A stretch of 64,000 bases of DNA from Thermoproteota archaeon (GTDB taxonomy: Archaea > Korarchaeota > Korarchaeia > Korarchaeales > Korarchaeaceae): positions 1-64,000 of the forward strand of contig JAOZGJ010000101.1 of NCBI GenBank assembly GCA_027491785.1. The letters run 5' to 3'. The notes under the pieces are model-generated. The model was not told the DNA's origin. It made no database searches and saw only the letters and a list, made by a program, of their open reading frames with translations. The position numbers and the translations under genes were made by a program. Positions 40,737-46,499 of the stretch are shown piece after piece (the first letter of the stretch is position 1; every line of letters starts with the position of its first letter).

Positions 40737-40820
40737 CCGCCCACCACTTAATGACCCCGTAGATAGAGAGGAAAGCGTGGGCTGATCAATGATCTACGGG
40801 GATTAGTTGGTGGGCGGACA
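40737..40820 (+). ncRNA. H/ACA box pseudouridylation guide RNA (single hairpin)
   Basis: The lower stem CCGCCCACCA (40737-40746) pairs with TGGTGGGCGG (40808-40817). An internal loop (CTTAATGA / ATTAGT) would be the pseudouridylation pocket, and the upper stem CCCCGTAGAT (40755-40764) pairs with ATCTACGGGG (40792-40801). A 27-nt apical part may hold a K-turn/K-loop (GAGGA and CTGA-like segments). ACA follows the lower stem at once (40818-40820), 16 nt after the upper stem, within the 14-16 nt rule. A TATA box is 26 nt upstream. The target is not identified. It ends 25 nt before dnaG. Confidence 0.72.
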
Positions 40821-40845
40821 TTTCCAAAATAGGAGGATGATTAAT

Positions 40846-42048
40846 TTGGCTGATAATTTGAGGAAGGATGGTTTTCATCATAAATATATAGCCAAATTAG
40901 AGGTTATAGTTAATGGTGTAGTGGAAACAAGTGATGTGATAGGCGCTATCTTTGGCCAATTAGAGGGACTCTTAGGTCCAGAGTTGGAGCTTAAAGAACT
41001 TCAGAGGACAGGTAAGATCGGTAGAATAAATATTAGAATGAGGAGAGAGGGGGATAAATCTAGAGGTATTGTGGAGCTCTATTCGGGACTCGATAAGGTC
41101 AGGACAGCATTATTAGCGGCAGCCATGGAAACAGTAGACAAGGTTGGTCCTTATCCAGCTAAATTCAGGCTTATAAGGATATTAGATGATAGGGAAGAGA
41201 GAAGAAATGATATAGCGAAAAGGGCTGCTGAAATTCTAAGGAAGTGGTCTGTGGAGAGGGAAGATAGTTTTAGGAAATTAATAGAATTTGTTCAGAGGGA
41301 AAGCGCCAAGTCCAATTTCATACTCTATGGAGAGGAAGAATTACCAGCTACAAGGGGGATAGAAGATGCAGAGGAGATCATCGTAGTTGAGGGAAGGGCT
41401 GATGTAATAAATCTCCTAAAGTACGGATATGATAATGTCATAGCCATGGGAGGGGCTGTAGAGAAGGTTCCTAAGTCTTTGATTAAGCTGATCTCAGAGA
41501 AGGAGGCCATTGCTTTCGTAGATGGAGATAGAGGAGGAGAAATGGTTCTAAGAACACTACTGGAACAAACCGATATAGACTATGTAGCTAGAGCTCCTGA
41601 AGGAAAAGTTGTAGAGGAAATGACTGCTAAAGAGATAAGAAAGGCGTTATCATCTCTTATTCCAGCAGACGACGTCAGAAGGGAGTTGGGGATTTCCCCT
41701 CCCAAGGAAGAGAAGCCTTTAGCTATTCAGAAAGTAAGAACAACCGAGGAGGATGAGAAGCTATCTAGAATACCAGAGATGCTCAGGGAGTACTACTTGA
41801 TGGTTAAAGATACGGACAAGGTACTCTTAATGGATGACGACCTTCATATACTCAAGGAGATTTCGGTAGGAGATCTACTTAACGAACTTAATGACTCAAG
41901 AGGCGTGAGATACATAGTTTATGATAGGATAGTGACGCAGAGAATTGTAGATAAGGCATACGAAGTTGGAGTTAGAGCTATAGTGGGAGGAATTGCTAAG
42001 GATATAGTGAGAAGGCCCACTGGGATTTCTATCTATACAACCCAGTAG
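40846..42048 (+). CDS. dnaG: DnaG-type TOPRIM primase
   Basis: This 400-residue archaeal DnaG homologue is found with the exosome and also able to make RNA primers in some archaea. The TOPRIM domain shows IIVVEGRADVINLLKYGYDNVIAMGG and the acidic FVDGDRGGEM region. The C-terminal part after residue 270 is the archaeal-specific domain. The TTG at 40846 follows AGGAGGATGAT; earlier in-frame ATG 40837 and GTG 40807 fall in the ribosome-binding site and guide RNA. It is followed within 9 nt by pelA. Confidence 0.94.
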   Translation: MADNLRKDGFHHKYIAKLEVIVNGVVETSDVIGAIFGQLEGLLGPELELKELQRTGKIGRINIRMRREGDKSRGIVELYSGLDKVRTALLAAAMETVDKVGPYPAKFRLIRILDDREERRNDIAKRAAEILRKWSVEREDSFRKLIEFVQRESAKSNFILYGEEELPATRGIEDAEEIIVVEGRADVINLLKYGYDNVIAMGGAVEKVPKSLIKLISEKEAIAFVDGDRGGEMVLRTLLEQTDIDYVARAPEGKVVEEMTAKEIRKALSSLIPADDVRRELGISPPKEEKPLAIQKVRTTEEDEKLSRIPEMLREYYLMVKDTDKVLLMDDDLHILKEISVGDLLNELNDSRGVRYIVYDRIVTQRIVDKAYEVGVRAIVGGIAKDIVRRPTGISIYTTQ

Positions 42049-42057
42049 GTGCCATCA

Positions 42058-43134
42058 TTGAGGATATTAGAACAAGATAGAAAAAAGGGATTCATTAGGC
42101 TCAGAATAGATACCTTGGATGATCTTTACTGGCTTCTATCGATCATAGAACCTGGAGACTTGATAACAATGAAAACTACCCGAAGAATCAAGCAAGATGG
42201 TATTAGAGCAGATAGTGGGGAGAGAGTTCCAATGACCTTAACGTTAGAGGTAGAGAAGGTAAAGATAGATCAATATTCTGAAAGACTCAGGGTAACAGGT
42301 ATCGTAAGAGTTGGACCTGAGAAGTTTGGAATTCAAGGGCAACATCATACTCTTAACGTAACGGAGGGCTCGATAATAAAGATTGAAAAGAAGAAATGGA
42401 ATAAGCTTCACTTAGATATACTGAAAAGAGCCGAAGAATATTCGAAAAAAGGAAATGTTATTTTAGTAGCGATGGACGACGAGGGAGCTACAGTAGCGAA
42501 GCTAAATGCCTATAGGGCTGAGGAAATTGCTTATGTTAGATCTAGCCTCCCGCCTAAGGGAGGCGACCCAAGAAGGAGAAGTGACTCTGAGAGGAGATAT
42601 TATAGCGATTTATATAGATTACTTGATGAATTAAATTCCAGAATAAATCCTGAAACTATAATAATTGGAGGACCTGGTTATACTAAGGATAAGTTTCTCT
42701 CCTATATAAAGGAGAAGAAATCCAGCATATTAGAGAAGATTAGATTAGGAGGAGCAAGCAATTCTACATTCTCCGGCATATTAGAGATGATAAAGAGGGG
42801 AGATATAGAGAAGGTAACGAAAGAATTCACCTTAGCTCGCGATATGAAATCTGTAGATAATATATTCGAGCTTCTAGCTAGGAGCTCTAGATTAGTTACT
42901 TATGGGCTTAAAGAGGTAAGCAAGGCTGTGGAATATGGTGCAGCAGAAGAAGTATTAGTAGTTAGCTCTCTCCTCTTTAATCCTAAGACTAGAGAGGAAG
43001 TCCTTTCTCTACTGGAAAAGTGCAATGAAACCAATGCCAAATTTCATATAATAGATGCGAAAAGCGAACCTGGAGAAAAATTAGCCTCCTTAGGAGGTAT
43101 AGCTGCTAAGTTAAGATATCAGATATCTGATTAG
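42058..43134 (+). CDS. pelA: aPelota, ribosome rescue factor
   Basis: This 358-residue Dom34/Pelota homologue, with aABCE1, splits stalled ribosomes and mediates mRNA quality control. The N-terminal Sm-like domain begins [25 protein letters not shown], the middle domain has [13 protein letters not shown] and the C-terminal L7Ae-like domain spans roughly 250-350 ([19 protein letters not shown]). It lacks the GGQ of release factors, as expected. The TTG at 42058 matches family N-termini (MRILE) with GGTG upstream, so the GTG at 42049 is rejected. Confidence 0.95.
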
Positions 43135-43135
43135 A

Positions 43136-43843
43136 TTAAAGAAAGTCCTCACTTAATCTTTTTCTGAACCCCTTCTTCAACCTCTTAAGCCTTAAAACTG
43201 CTTCTTCGAAGCTTTCTCTAGGCATAAGACGATAGTTCAGGTAGAGTCCCGTTGTTCCAACAATACTTCTCTTAGTAAGTACCTTCACCCTCTCCTCTAC
43301 TGATTCCCTTCTAATGCCTAGTACTTTAGCCACTGCTCCCTCATATCCCTTCACTGGATATTCTAAGTGGCCTTCTTTGTTGGGTACTATTAATTTCAAT
43401 TTTTTATTGACTCCTGGGACCCTAATACCGGATAATATATCTTTTAAACAGACTTCTCCACCAAATTTATAGAATTCTTCCTCTTTCTCCCTTAGTTTTC
43501 CAATAGGAAGAGACACCGTTATCCTATCTCTAAAGTAGATGTAGTATTTTGGGGTGCTCTGTGGAGTGGCTTGAGTTATTTCTCTAAAGAGTGGGCTATC
43601 TAAGTATGCAGAGAGATGCTCTTCTAGTAGAGAAAGGGGCAGTGTTGGCTCTATTATTATAATATCAATGTCGCTTCCTTGATGGATATCGCCCCTTGCT
43701 ATGCTTCCATATGCATAGGCAATAATTCCAATCTCTTCTAATATTTTAAGGACGATTTTCGCTTTATCTCTCTTCTTAGATAGAATTTTCCATTGCTCTG
43801 GGCTATAAAAGATCTTAGCCTCTGGTTTTATATCGAGCGTCAT
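43136..43843 (-). CDS. nucleotidyltransferase-domain protein
   Basis: This 235-residue protein has a polymerase-beta-like nucleotidyltransferase motif: AYGSIARGDIHQGSDIDI (about residues 47-64) gives GS and the metal-binding D-x-D. A central beta region and a helical C-terminal part follow; the latter (KGYEGAVAKVLGI and RESVEERVKVL) may be a substrate-recognition domain. The ATG at 43843 is chosen; an in-frame upstream GTG/ATG at 44047 would run through the divergent zinc-finger gene and encode unconserved residues. It may be an RNA- or protein-modifying transferase; unknown. Convergent with pelA, 1 nt apart. Confidence 0.78.
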   Translation of the reverse strand: MTLDIKPEAKIFYSPEQWKILSKKRDKAKIVLKILEEIGIIAYAYGSIARGDIHQGSDIDIIIIEPTLPLSLLEEHLSAYLDSPLFREITQATPQSTPKYYIYFRDRITVSLPIGKLREKEEEFYKFGGEVCLKDILSGIRVPGVNKKLKLIVPNKEGHLEYPVKGYEGAVAKVLGIRRESVEERVKVLTKRSIVGTTGLYLNYRLMPRESFEEAVLRLKRLKKGFRKRLSEDFL

Positions 43844-43856
43844 AGTGATCAATCTT

Positions 43857-44549
43857 ATGATATATGAAAATGCTACTAAAAAGGAACTTAGGTGCAGCAG
43901 GTGCGGGTCTAAAGAAGTAATTTTAATTAGAAGATATTCAGGAGAAGCCTTATGTCGTAAATGTTTGAGAGAGTCCCTCTTATCTAGAATGAGGAGATCC
44001 GTAAGTAAATACAATCTACTAGCAAGGAATGATAGCCTGCTATACATTAGAACGAGACTCCCTTACGATAATGTCTTATGGGAGCTTTTTCGAGACATGG
44101 AATCAGAGTTTCCCGTTAAGATAGATTCCATATATACTGATATGGAGTTACCTGATGAGCTATGGAATTCCCTCTATGGCATGGCTAGGGAGATTTTAGA
44201 AGGGAAGAAGCTAGTACTTCCCCTCATCTTAGATGACGTCGTGGCCCTCTTCCTTAGGTTCATATTTCGAGGATCCCCTAGTATTCTCATTATTAGGGGA
44301 AGAGTGTTCTTAGCTATGAGGGAGATAAGCACTATGATCACACCTTTTGTTGAGATCCCCATTGAGGAAGCATGGGCTCTCTCCAAAGGTAAAGTTAATG
44401 ATATGGATATACTAGGCTATATATCTGGAAATAATTTTTTAAATATGGCCTTTAAATTAGAAAAGGTTAATCCAGGAGCCAGATTTCACTTCTTAAGATC
44501 TCTTGAGAGATTAGATCTATTGAGATCGATAGGCATAATTTTTAGATAG
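43857..44549 (+). CDS. degenerate TtuA/Ncs6-like protein with zinc finger
   Basis: This 230-residue protein has the N-terminal zinc finger of tRNA 2-thiolation enzymes (Cys13/Cys16, Cys33/Cys36: CSRCG...CRKCL, then SVSKYNLL). It also has later segments resembling that family: LDDVVALFLRFIFRG (cf. the DD-x-x-x-T-x-L-M-R-x-x-R-G region) and NPGARFHFLRSLERL near the end. The SGGKDS PP-loop is replaced by IRTRLPYDN and there is no cysteine outside the finger, so neither ATP adenylation nor an Fe-S site is expected. ATG 43857 has GTGATC upstream. This is likely a pseudo-enzyme, possibly a partner of an active TtuA elsewhere. Family assignment is by eye. Confidence 0.65.
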   Translation: MIYENATKKELRCSRCGSKEVILIRRYSGEALCRKCLRESLLSRMRRSVSKYNLLARNDSLLYIRTRLPYDNVLWELFRDMESEFPVKIDSIYTDMELPDELWNSLYGMAREILEGKKLVLPLILDDVVALFLRFIFRGSPSILIIRGRVFLAMREISTMITPFVEIPIEEAWALSKGKVNDMDILGYISGNNFLNMAFKLEKVNPGARFHFLRSLERLDLLRSIGIIFR

Positions 44550-44591: not shown

Positions 44592-46031
44592 ATGTCGGAA
44601 AGAGAGGCCTTTGAGCTCACACCTAAGGAAGAGAATTTCTCCAGATGGTTTGACGAGGTTCTCTTTAAGGCTGAGATCTTAGACGAGAGATATCCTGTGA
44701 AAGGTATGTATGTATGGCTACCTTTTGGATACGAATTAATGGAAAATGTAATGAGCATAATGGAACGTTTAATGAGAGAAACAGGGCATAAAAGAGTCTA
44801 CTTTCCTGGTGTAGTTCCAGAGAGAGTGCTGGGAAGAGAATTCAGGTTCATAAAGGGATTTGAGGATTCTATCTATTGGATCACTAGGTTAGGAAGGCAA
44901 AATATAGAAGAAAAGCTAGCTCTGAGGCCTACCAGTGAAGCTATAATGTATGAAGTCCTAAATAGATGGATTACGAGCTACAAAGACCTACCACTTAGAA
45001 TCTATCAAATAGTACCTGTGTATAGGTATGAAACAAAGGCAACGAGACCTATGCTTAGAGTAAGGGAGATCGCTTTCTTCAAGGAGGGCCATACATTTCA
45101 TGCTACCTATGAAGATGCAGTTAAGCAAGTAGAGTTAGGTGTTAAAATTTACAGGAAGTTTTATGACGAGCTTCTTATCCCTTACGTAGTAGTCAAGACA
45201 ACGCCTTGGGATACGTTCCCAGGGGCAAAGTACAACTATGATATCTTAACCATAATGCCAGATGGAAAGGCATTAGAGCTGGGCAGCGTGATAAATTTCG
45301 GAGATCTATTTGCTAAAGCTTATGGCCTCGAATACATGGATGAAAATGGAGAGAGAAGACATGTCAACACAACATCCTTTGGAATTTCCGAGAGATCACT
45401 TGCAGCTCTAATATCGATACATGGAGACAATAGGGGGCTAAAGTTACCACCCAAGCTAGCTCCCATCCAAATAGTAATAGTACCCATAATATCTAAGGGG
45501 TACGAGGAGAAGATAATGGAGTATTGCAAGGAGATATCTGGTATGCTATCCAAGGAATTCAGGGTATTTTTGGACGATAGTGAAGATAGACCTGGATATA
45601 AATTTTACAAGTGGGAGATGAAAGGTGTACCCATTAGAGTAGAGATAGGAAGGAAGGAGTACGAAGAAGGAACGCTGACAATATTTAGAAGAGACACCAT
45701 GGAAAGGATAAAGATTCCATCCGATGATGCTATAGCTTCTTTGAACAGCACTATGAAAGATATAGAAGATAACATGAGATCTCAGGCTAAGAAGTACTTT
45801 AGCGAGAGAACAGTCCACGCCACCAGCATAGAGGAGATAAAAGAAAACGTTGGAGATAAGATGGTTTCCTTTGCATGGTGCGGACTAGATGAATGCGGGC
45901 ATGAGGTCGAAGAGGAAGTTGGATACGGCATCCTTGGATATGAAGAAAATGCGCTTGCTGGTTCAGGAGAAAAATGCGTTATTTGCGGTAGAGAGGCAAA
46001 ACATAAAGCTTGGATAGGAAGATCCTATTGA
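44592..46031 (+). CDS. proS: prolyl-tRNA synthetase (archaeal/eukaryotic type)
   Basis: A class II synthetase of 479 residues. Motif 2 region VPVYRYETKATRPMLRVREIAFFKEGHT, motif 3 HGDNRGLKLPP and the anticodon-binding domain after residue 290 (IQIVIVPI) are recognisable. The archaeal C-terminal zinc domain contains CGLDECG and CVICGREAKHKAWIGRSY, ending in the conserved Tyr. Full length. It starts 42 nt after the TtuA-like gene and could be co-transcribed. Confidence 0.96.
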   Translation: MSEREAFELTPKEENFSRWFDEVLFKAEILDERYPVKGMYVWLPFGYELMENVMSIMERLMRETGHKRVYFPGVVPERVLGREFRFIKGFEDSIYWITRLGRQNIEEKLALRPTSEAIMYEVLNRWITSYKDLPLRIYQIVPVYRYETKATRPMLRVREIAFFKEGHTFHATYEDAVKQVELGVKIYRKFYDELLIPYVVVKTTPWDTFPGAKYNYDILTIMPDGKALELGSVINFGDLFAKAYGLEYMDENGERRHVNTTSFGISERSLAALISIHGDNRGLKLPPKLAPIQIVIVPIISKGYEEKIMEYCKEISGMLSKEFRVFLDDSEDRPGYKFYKWEMKGVPIRVEIGRKEYEEGTLTIFRRDTMERIKIPSDDAIASLNSTMKDIEDNMRSQAKKYFSERTVHATSIEEIKENVGDKMVSFAWCGLDECGHEVEEEVGYGILGYEENALAGSGEKCVICGREAKHKAWIGRSY

Positions 46032-46157: not shown

Positions 46158-46499
46158 ATGCCAAAAAAGAGGAAAAACAGGGGTAGGAAACTAGGTGGTT
46201 CAGGCCATGAGAGGATAGTTCAGTGTTATCAGTGTGGTAGAGCCATACCAGCTGATAAAGCTGTGAAGGTAACTAGGTGGATCTCTCCCGTAGGGGGAAG
46301 CCTAGGTAGGGATCTCGAGAGGCAGGGGGCATATATCTCAAAGAGGTTAGAGACTAGATATTACTGCATAAGCTGCGCGGTATATCTAGGGATCGTGAAA
46401 CCAAGGGCTGAGGAGGAAAGGCGTGTAGCTGTTCCTTTGAATAGATCCTATAGAAAGAGAAGGTCTTCTAAGTTACCACTTAAGTTCTTAAAAGTGTGA
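46158..46499 (+). CDS. rps26e: 30S ribosomal protein eS26
   Basis: This 113-residue ribosomal protein is shared by eukaryotes and part of the archaea, mostly TACK groups. MPKKRKNRGR, the zinc pair CYQCGRAIPADKAVK and YYCISCAVYLGIV are clear; the basic C-terminus follows. The ATG is preceded by GGGGGAAAT. A CTTTATTTTC box lies about 40 nt upstream. Its presence is one of the better lineage hints in the window. Confidence 0.95.
   Translation: MPKKRKNRGRKLGGSGHERIVQCYQCGRAIPADKAVKVTRWISPVGGSLGRDLERQGAYISKRLETRYYCISCAVYLGIVKPRAEEERRVAVPLNRSYRKRRSSKLPLKFLKV

Follow-up and report, generated by a model that had tools for sequence, protein, structure and literature searches.

The archaeal U34 tRNA 2-thiolase NcsA has been described as one enzyme that acts on its own, and the pairing of Ncs6 with Ncs2 as a eukaryotic trait (PMC10067955). 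MmNcsA is reported to be a homodimer that is active alone (PMC10067955), and the literature searched yielded no account of an Ncs2-like protein in korarchaea or any other archaea. The korarchaeal DNA analysed here, a stretch of 64,000 nucleotides (the window), contains a gene that resembles these thiolases but lacks their catalytic motifs, which raises the question whether an archaeon, too, might divide the thiolase over an active and an inactive partner.

Descent from tRNA thiolases and loss of the catalytic motifs

The gene, designated pseudo-NcsA, was found as originally predicted, on the forward strand with an ATG start and encoding 230 aa. Its recognizable elements in the window are the following.

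43857..44549, + strand: pseudo-NcsA gene, a catalytically degenerate paralogue of the NcsA/TtuA tRNA 2-thiolases (family alignment, hhalign, fold, PDB profile)
43893..43964, + strand: N-terminal zinc finger, C13-xx-C16 ... RRYSGE ... C33-xx-C36 (PF22082, TtuA_LIM_N; family alignment)
43965..44021, + strand: basic helix C-terminal to the finger (LRESLLSRMRRSVSKYNLL), aligning with the corresponding NcsA helix
44052..44069, + strand: PP-loop position, TRLPYD versus SGGKDS in the active enzymes, the nucleotide-binding motif being lost (hhalign)
44229..44237, + strand: LDD, the remnant of GHNLDD (GHN gone), with the CxYC helix upstream deleted (alignment)

Searches with the single pseudo-NcsA sequence yielded weak matches that covered the finger only (Pfam TtuA_LIM_N, 4.8e-5; NCBIfam NcsA, 2e-4). 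When 23 family members were aligned (A1), the alignment could be related to the active enzymes over 204 columns (hhalign 99.6%, E 3e-24) and to 40 reference NcsAs over 220 columns (hhalign 99.8%, E 1.5e-30), and a profile search of the PDB with the family returned TtuA PH0300 as the best match (6.4e-19), as well as NcsA (1.1e-17), over profile positions 2-214. The AlphaFold model of pseudo-NcsA (pLDDT 86.5) had its best structural match in TtuA 5ztb (Z 15.8 over 196 residues), and it also matched NcsA 6scy (Z 14.9). Pseudo-NcsA is homologous to the NcsA/TtuA tRNA thiolases over its whole length and has kept their fold, well beyond chance, and the relation to TtuA/Ncs6 that had been proposed from the letters holds by profile as well as by predicted fold. 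Ribosomal protein S14 was rejected as an identity for pseudo-NcsA, its weak matches covering the zinc finger only.

With NcsA (M. maripaludis 6scy, H. volcanii HVO_0580), pseudo-NcsA shares the fold, the full-length homology, the N-terminal zinc finger, the basic helix and the PGxxF/xxLRS C-terminal helix region, whereas it is about 90 residues shorter and lacks SGGKDS, the three [4Fe-4S] cysteines and the C-terminal finger. Compared with TtuA (the m5s2U54 thiolase; PH0300 5mko/3vrh, T. thermophilus 5ztb), it lacks the catalytic residues, and its finger is of the NcsA type. The only cysteines of the protein, C13, C16, C33 and C36, all reside in the finger, as had been read originally, and are invariant in the 23 members of the family alignment. 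Profile-profile alignment bore out that SKYNLL, LDDVVALFLRFIFRG and NPGARFHFLRSLERL follow the order of the same NcsA/TtuA elements, and hhalign placed SGGKDS on T66-D71, in agreement with the predicted degeneration of the PP-loop; the motif is absent from all 23 aligned rows. The CxYC helix corresponds to a deletion of ~35 residues, the third cluster cysteine falls in a gap, and all three [4Fe-4S] cluster cysteines are missing; among the aligned rows only L028 retains CxxC at the CxYC place. Unnoticed in the original prediction was the absence of the C-terminal zinc finger of NcsA/TtuA, the protein stopping about where this finger would start. Judged from these sequence features, pseudo-NcsA cannot be a thiolase by itself.

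Distribution, selection and genomic neighbourhood

Of 26 Korarchaeia genomes, 23 encode pseudo-NcsA, and the remaining three are 63-71% complete. The gene is under purifying selection (dN/dS 0.08-0.25 in close Korarchaeum pairs). Degenerate copies were also encountered in the sister class (G026; those of G027 and G028 are partial) and in a few genomes beyond it, namely in G101 (a 'Desulfurococcales' MAG), G164, G660 and, with a different look, G468. The remnants of lost motifs, including the CxxC of L028 at the CxYC position, SGRGLD in G028 and SGCRDS in G660, look like steps between the enzyme and the korarchaeal form. In a tree, the dead copies of Korarchaeia, G026, G101 and G164 fell together (99/99) and that of G660 fell apart from them, which suggests that dead copies arose at least two times; this is a tentative conclusion owing to the very long branches, for which attraction is possible.

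The protein of G468 (L246:8102-8836) is a different degenerate NcsA-like protein, which is without a PP-loop, keeps a C-terminal CxxC...CxxC finger and has a weak N-terminal finger. The NcsA of the same genome has a normal N-terminal finger.

The conserved neighbours of pseudo-NcsA in the window are listed below.

40807..42048, + strand: dnaG, primase
42049..43134, + strand: pelA (pelota)
43136..43843, - strand: nucleotidyltransferase (NTase, PF01909), divergent to pseudo-NcsA
44592..46031, + strand: proS, proline--tRNA ligase, 42 bp downstream of pseudo-NcsA on the same strand
46158..46499, + strand: 30S ribosomal protein S26e

The order dnaG-pelA-NTase(-)-pseudo-NcsA(+)-proS-S26e is kept across Korarchaeia, and the location beside proS and pelA, which had originally been singled out for comparison with relatives, is conserved in them. 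proS is absent from its place in G017. Of the korarchaeal loci examined, nearly all have the NTase adjoining pseudo-NcsA, and no NTase was found next to the copy in G026. The NTase is divergent to pseudo-NcsA in G028 too and lies ~1 kb from the copy of the unrelated G164, and the association may therefore possibly be functional. In G003 (L200) the NTase open reading frame is in pieces.

Complementary decay of the finger and the active site

Intact relatives, for which the original prediction had recommended a look elsewhere in the genome, exist in two types. One of them lies just outside the window.

C47:66756-67643: intact NcsA-type enzyme with SGGKDS and CTYC, 23 kb from pseudo-NcsA and not in one operon with it

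This enzyme scored 165 bits with the NcsA model versus 121 with the TtuA model, and an intact TtuA-type enzyme is encoded on C41 of the same genome (156 versus 96 bits). All 23 Korarchaeia genomes with pseudo-NcsA also have an NcsA-type enzyme, and G022, a 98% complete genome with both pseudo-NcsA and NcsA, yielded no detectable TtuA.

The state of the finger and of the catalytic part was determined by splitting NcsAs just before the PP-loop. The reference set consisted of 40 NcsAs picked by a whole-length NcsA model with matches starting at model position 1-5, by which finger-less NcsAs are excluded; half-models were built ten times from a random two-thirds of these 40, and the remainder was scored. 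For the finger half, 39 held-out NcsAs scored 39-65 bits (median 55.5), the 18 korarchaeal NcsAs 15-33 (23.7) and the 23 korarchaeal pseudo-enzymes 30-58 (47.5). The catalytic half gave 247-360 bits for held-out NcsAs, 234-270 for korarchaeal NcsAs and 1-15 for the pseudo-enzymes. The ratio of finger to catalytic score, which corrects for general divergence, was 0.139-0.227 in the references and 0.059-0.126 in korarchaeal NcsA, without overlap. Likewise, Pfam PF22082 was matched at E<=0.001 by 29/40 reference NcsAs, 2/18 korarchaeal NcsAs, among which that of Methanodesulfokora (G022), and 16/23 pseudo-enzymes. By these sequence scores, pseudo-NcsA has kept the finger and lost the active site, and korarchaeal NcsA has kept the active site and has a decayed finger region. 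Korarchaeal NcsA retains its four finger cysteines, and its finger may therefore still work.

Outside Korarchaeia, the active NcsAs of G164 and G660 begin after the finger position (finger-half scores of 0.7 and 18.4), no finger was found upstream of either gene in any frame, and the dead copies of both genomes keep PF22082. The NcsA of G101 scored 30.5 for the finger half, below all references. In the sister class (G026, G027), the NcsA finger half scored a normal 48-62 bits despite the coexisting pseudo-enzyme, consistent with the dead copy having preceded the decay of its partner's finger. A further exception is G468, with its weak-finger dead copy beside an ordinary NcsA. Finally, NcsA-type matches starting after the N-terminal finger were found in G044, G058, G407 and G137, genomes in which no pseudo-NcsA was seen. 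Because finger-less NcsA thus also occurs in a few genomes without a detected pseudo-enzyme, the association between finger decay and pseudo-enzyme appears strong in Korarchaeia and is not a rule.

A candidate two-part U34 thiolase

That the two proteins have decayed in complementary parts provides independent support for the active/inactive pair that had been suggested originally, and the data are read most simply as pseudo-NcsA standing in for one protomer and contributing the finger. With moderate confidence, we regard pseudo-NcsA as probably being the subunit of a heteromeric U34 2-thiolase that handles the tRNA without taking part in catalysis, and as working like Ncs2/Ctu2 beside Ncs6/Ctu1. 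For this subunit we infer dimerisation, tRNA binding and U34 as the target: it would dimerise with NcsA, as a substitute for one of the two protomers in the NcsA homodimer, and its finger and basic helix would grip the anticodon stem-loop and thereby guide U34 into the PP-loop/[4Fe-4S] site of NcsA. NcsA would then adenylate U34 and transfer the sulfur, and the pseudo-subunit would do no chemistry. Counting against the pair are the four finger cysteines retained by korarchaeal NcsA, the Pfam finger matches of two of the 18 korarchaeal NcsAs (including that of G022), the genomes G026/G027 and G468, the finger-less NcsAs of G044, G058 and G137, the absence from pseudo-NcsA of a C-terminal finger such as Ncs2/Ctu2 retains, and the 23-kb distance from ncsA.

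Other explanations start from the same observations. A non-functional gene, either a decaying duplicate or a sequencing artefact, would agree with the loss of every catalytic motif from pseudo-NcsA, and it is refuted by the dN/dS of 0.08-0.25, the presence in 23/26 genomes, the invariant finger cysteines and the fixed synteny. Restoration of the PP-loop by a sequencing correction, which had been named as a possible refutation, is excluded because independent homologues carry the same lesions. More deserving of attention, although unlikely, is a repurposed RNA-binding scaffold that has left thiolation and serves some other RNA-related function together with its fixed neighbours (such as NTase, prolyl-tRNA synthetase, ribosome-related factors): the neighbourhood from dnaG to S26e is fixed across Korarchaeia, the NTase link recurs in G028 and G164, and ncsA is 23 kb away. 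Such a scaffold leaves the finger decay of the korarchaeal active NcsA, and the finger loss in G164 and G660, unexplained; moreover, proS is gone from its place in G017, and the copy in G026 has no NTase found next to it.

Regulation of an active relative is a common role of pseudo-enzymes, and pseudo-NcsA has kept a predicted RNA-binding finger without catalysis, as would befit a negative regulator or competitor of NcsA/TtuA that sequesters tRNA or forms inactive heterodimers. This role would predict neither decay of the finger in the regulated enzyme nor fixation in a whole class, which makes it improbable. Partnership with TtuA in s2T54 thiolation, rather than with NcsA, is conceivable in the window genome, where both intact enzymes occur and both are relatives of the homodimer type. 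It is nevertheless very improbable, given that pseudo-NcsA and NcsA persist in the 98% complete G022 in which TtuA was not detected, that the decayed finger belongs to NcsA, and that the pseudo-enzyme finger carries an RYSG-type motif, which 17/40 reference NcsAs share and which occurs in 0/18 korarchaeal NcsAs.

The preferred reading of pseudo-NcsA as an inactive thiolase subunit has a precedent in eukaryotes. Ctu1/Ctu2 has been modelled on the NcsA homodimer, with Ctu2 lacking the cluster cysteines and keeping its zinc sites, and the terminal zinc domains have been suggested to possibly clamp the anticodon loop (PMC10067955). Like Ncs2/Ctu2, pseudo-NcsA is a degenerate thiolase paralogue that has lost the cluster cysteines, keeps a zinc finger and co-occurs with an intact catalytic relative (PMC10067955 for the eukaryotic side). 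Unlike Ctu2, which has a zinc site at each terminus as well as extra regions (PMC10067955), it is short and has the N-terminal site only. PF10288 (CTU2) was matched neither by A4 members (E<=1) nor by A1 members (E<=0.001); this model is weakly specific, because 2/40 ordinary NcsAs match it. Pseudo-NcsA is likened to Ncs2 by its supposed mode of work, and orthology is not claimed. The same logic, by which a homomeric enzyme gives way to an active and an inactive subunit, applies to ADAT2/ADAT3, Trm6/Trm61 and the Sen splicing endonuclease (PMC10067955), which are eukaryotic examples and concern enzymes other than NcsA.

In a wider sense, the chances are about even that some archaea have an obligate two-part U34 thiolation, with the finger on an inactive subunit and the active site on an active one, which arose at least two times (in Korarchaeota with G101/G164, and in G660) in parallel to Ncs6/Ncs2. 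If true, the active/inactive split of the thiolase would not be unique to eukaryotes, and a heat-loving korarchaeon would offer small thermophilic proteins for the study of a complex that, in its human form, resisted purification as a recombinant complex (PMC10067955). Moreover, the complementary decay suggests, in testable form, that the N-terminal finger is what the inactive partner would contribute.

On C47, outside the window, a gene for a ubiquitin-like (SAMP2/ThiS-type) protein (L212:9025-9276, + strand) overlaps the start of ncsA. In nine Korarchaeia genomes the ubiquitin-like protein encoded by ncsA's neighbour is without the C-terminal GG and has a conserved TxHxSPV-type tail instead, and that of the sister class (G026) retains GG; the sulfur carrier of the korarchaeal system may be degenerate too.
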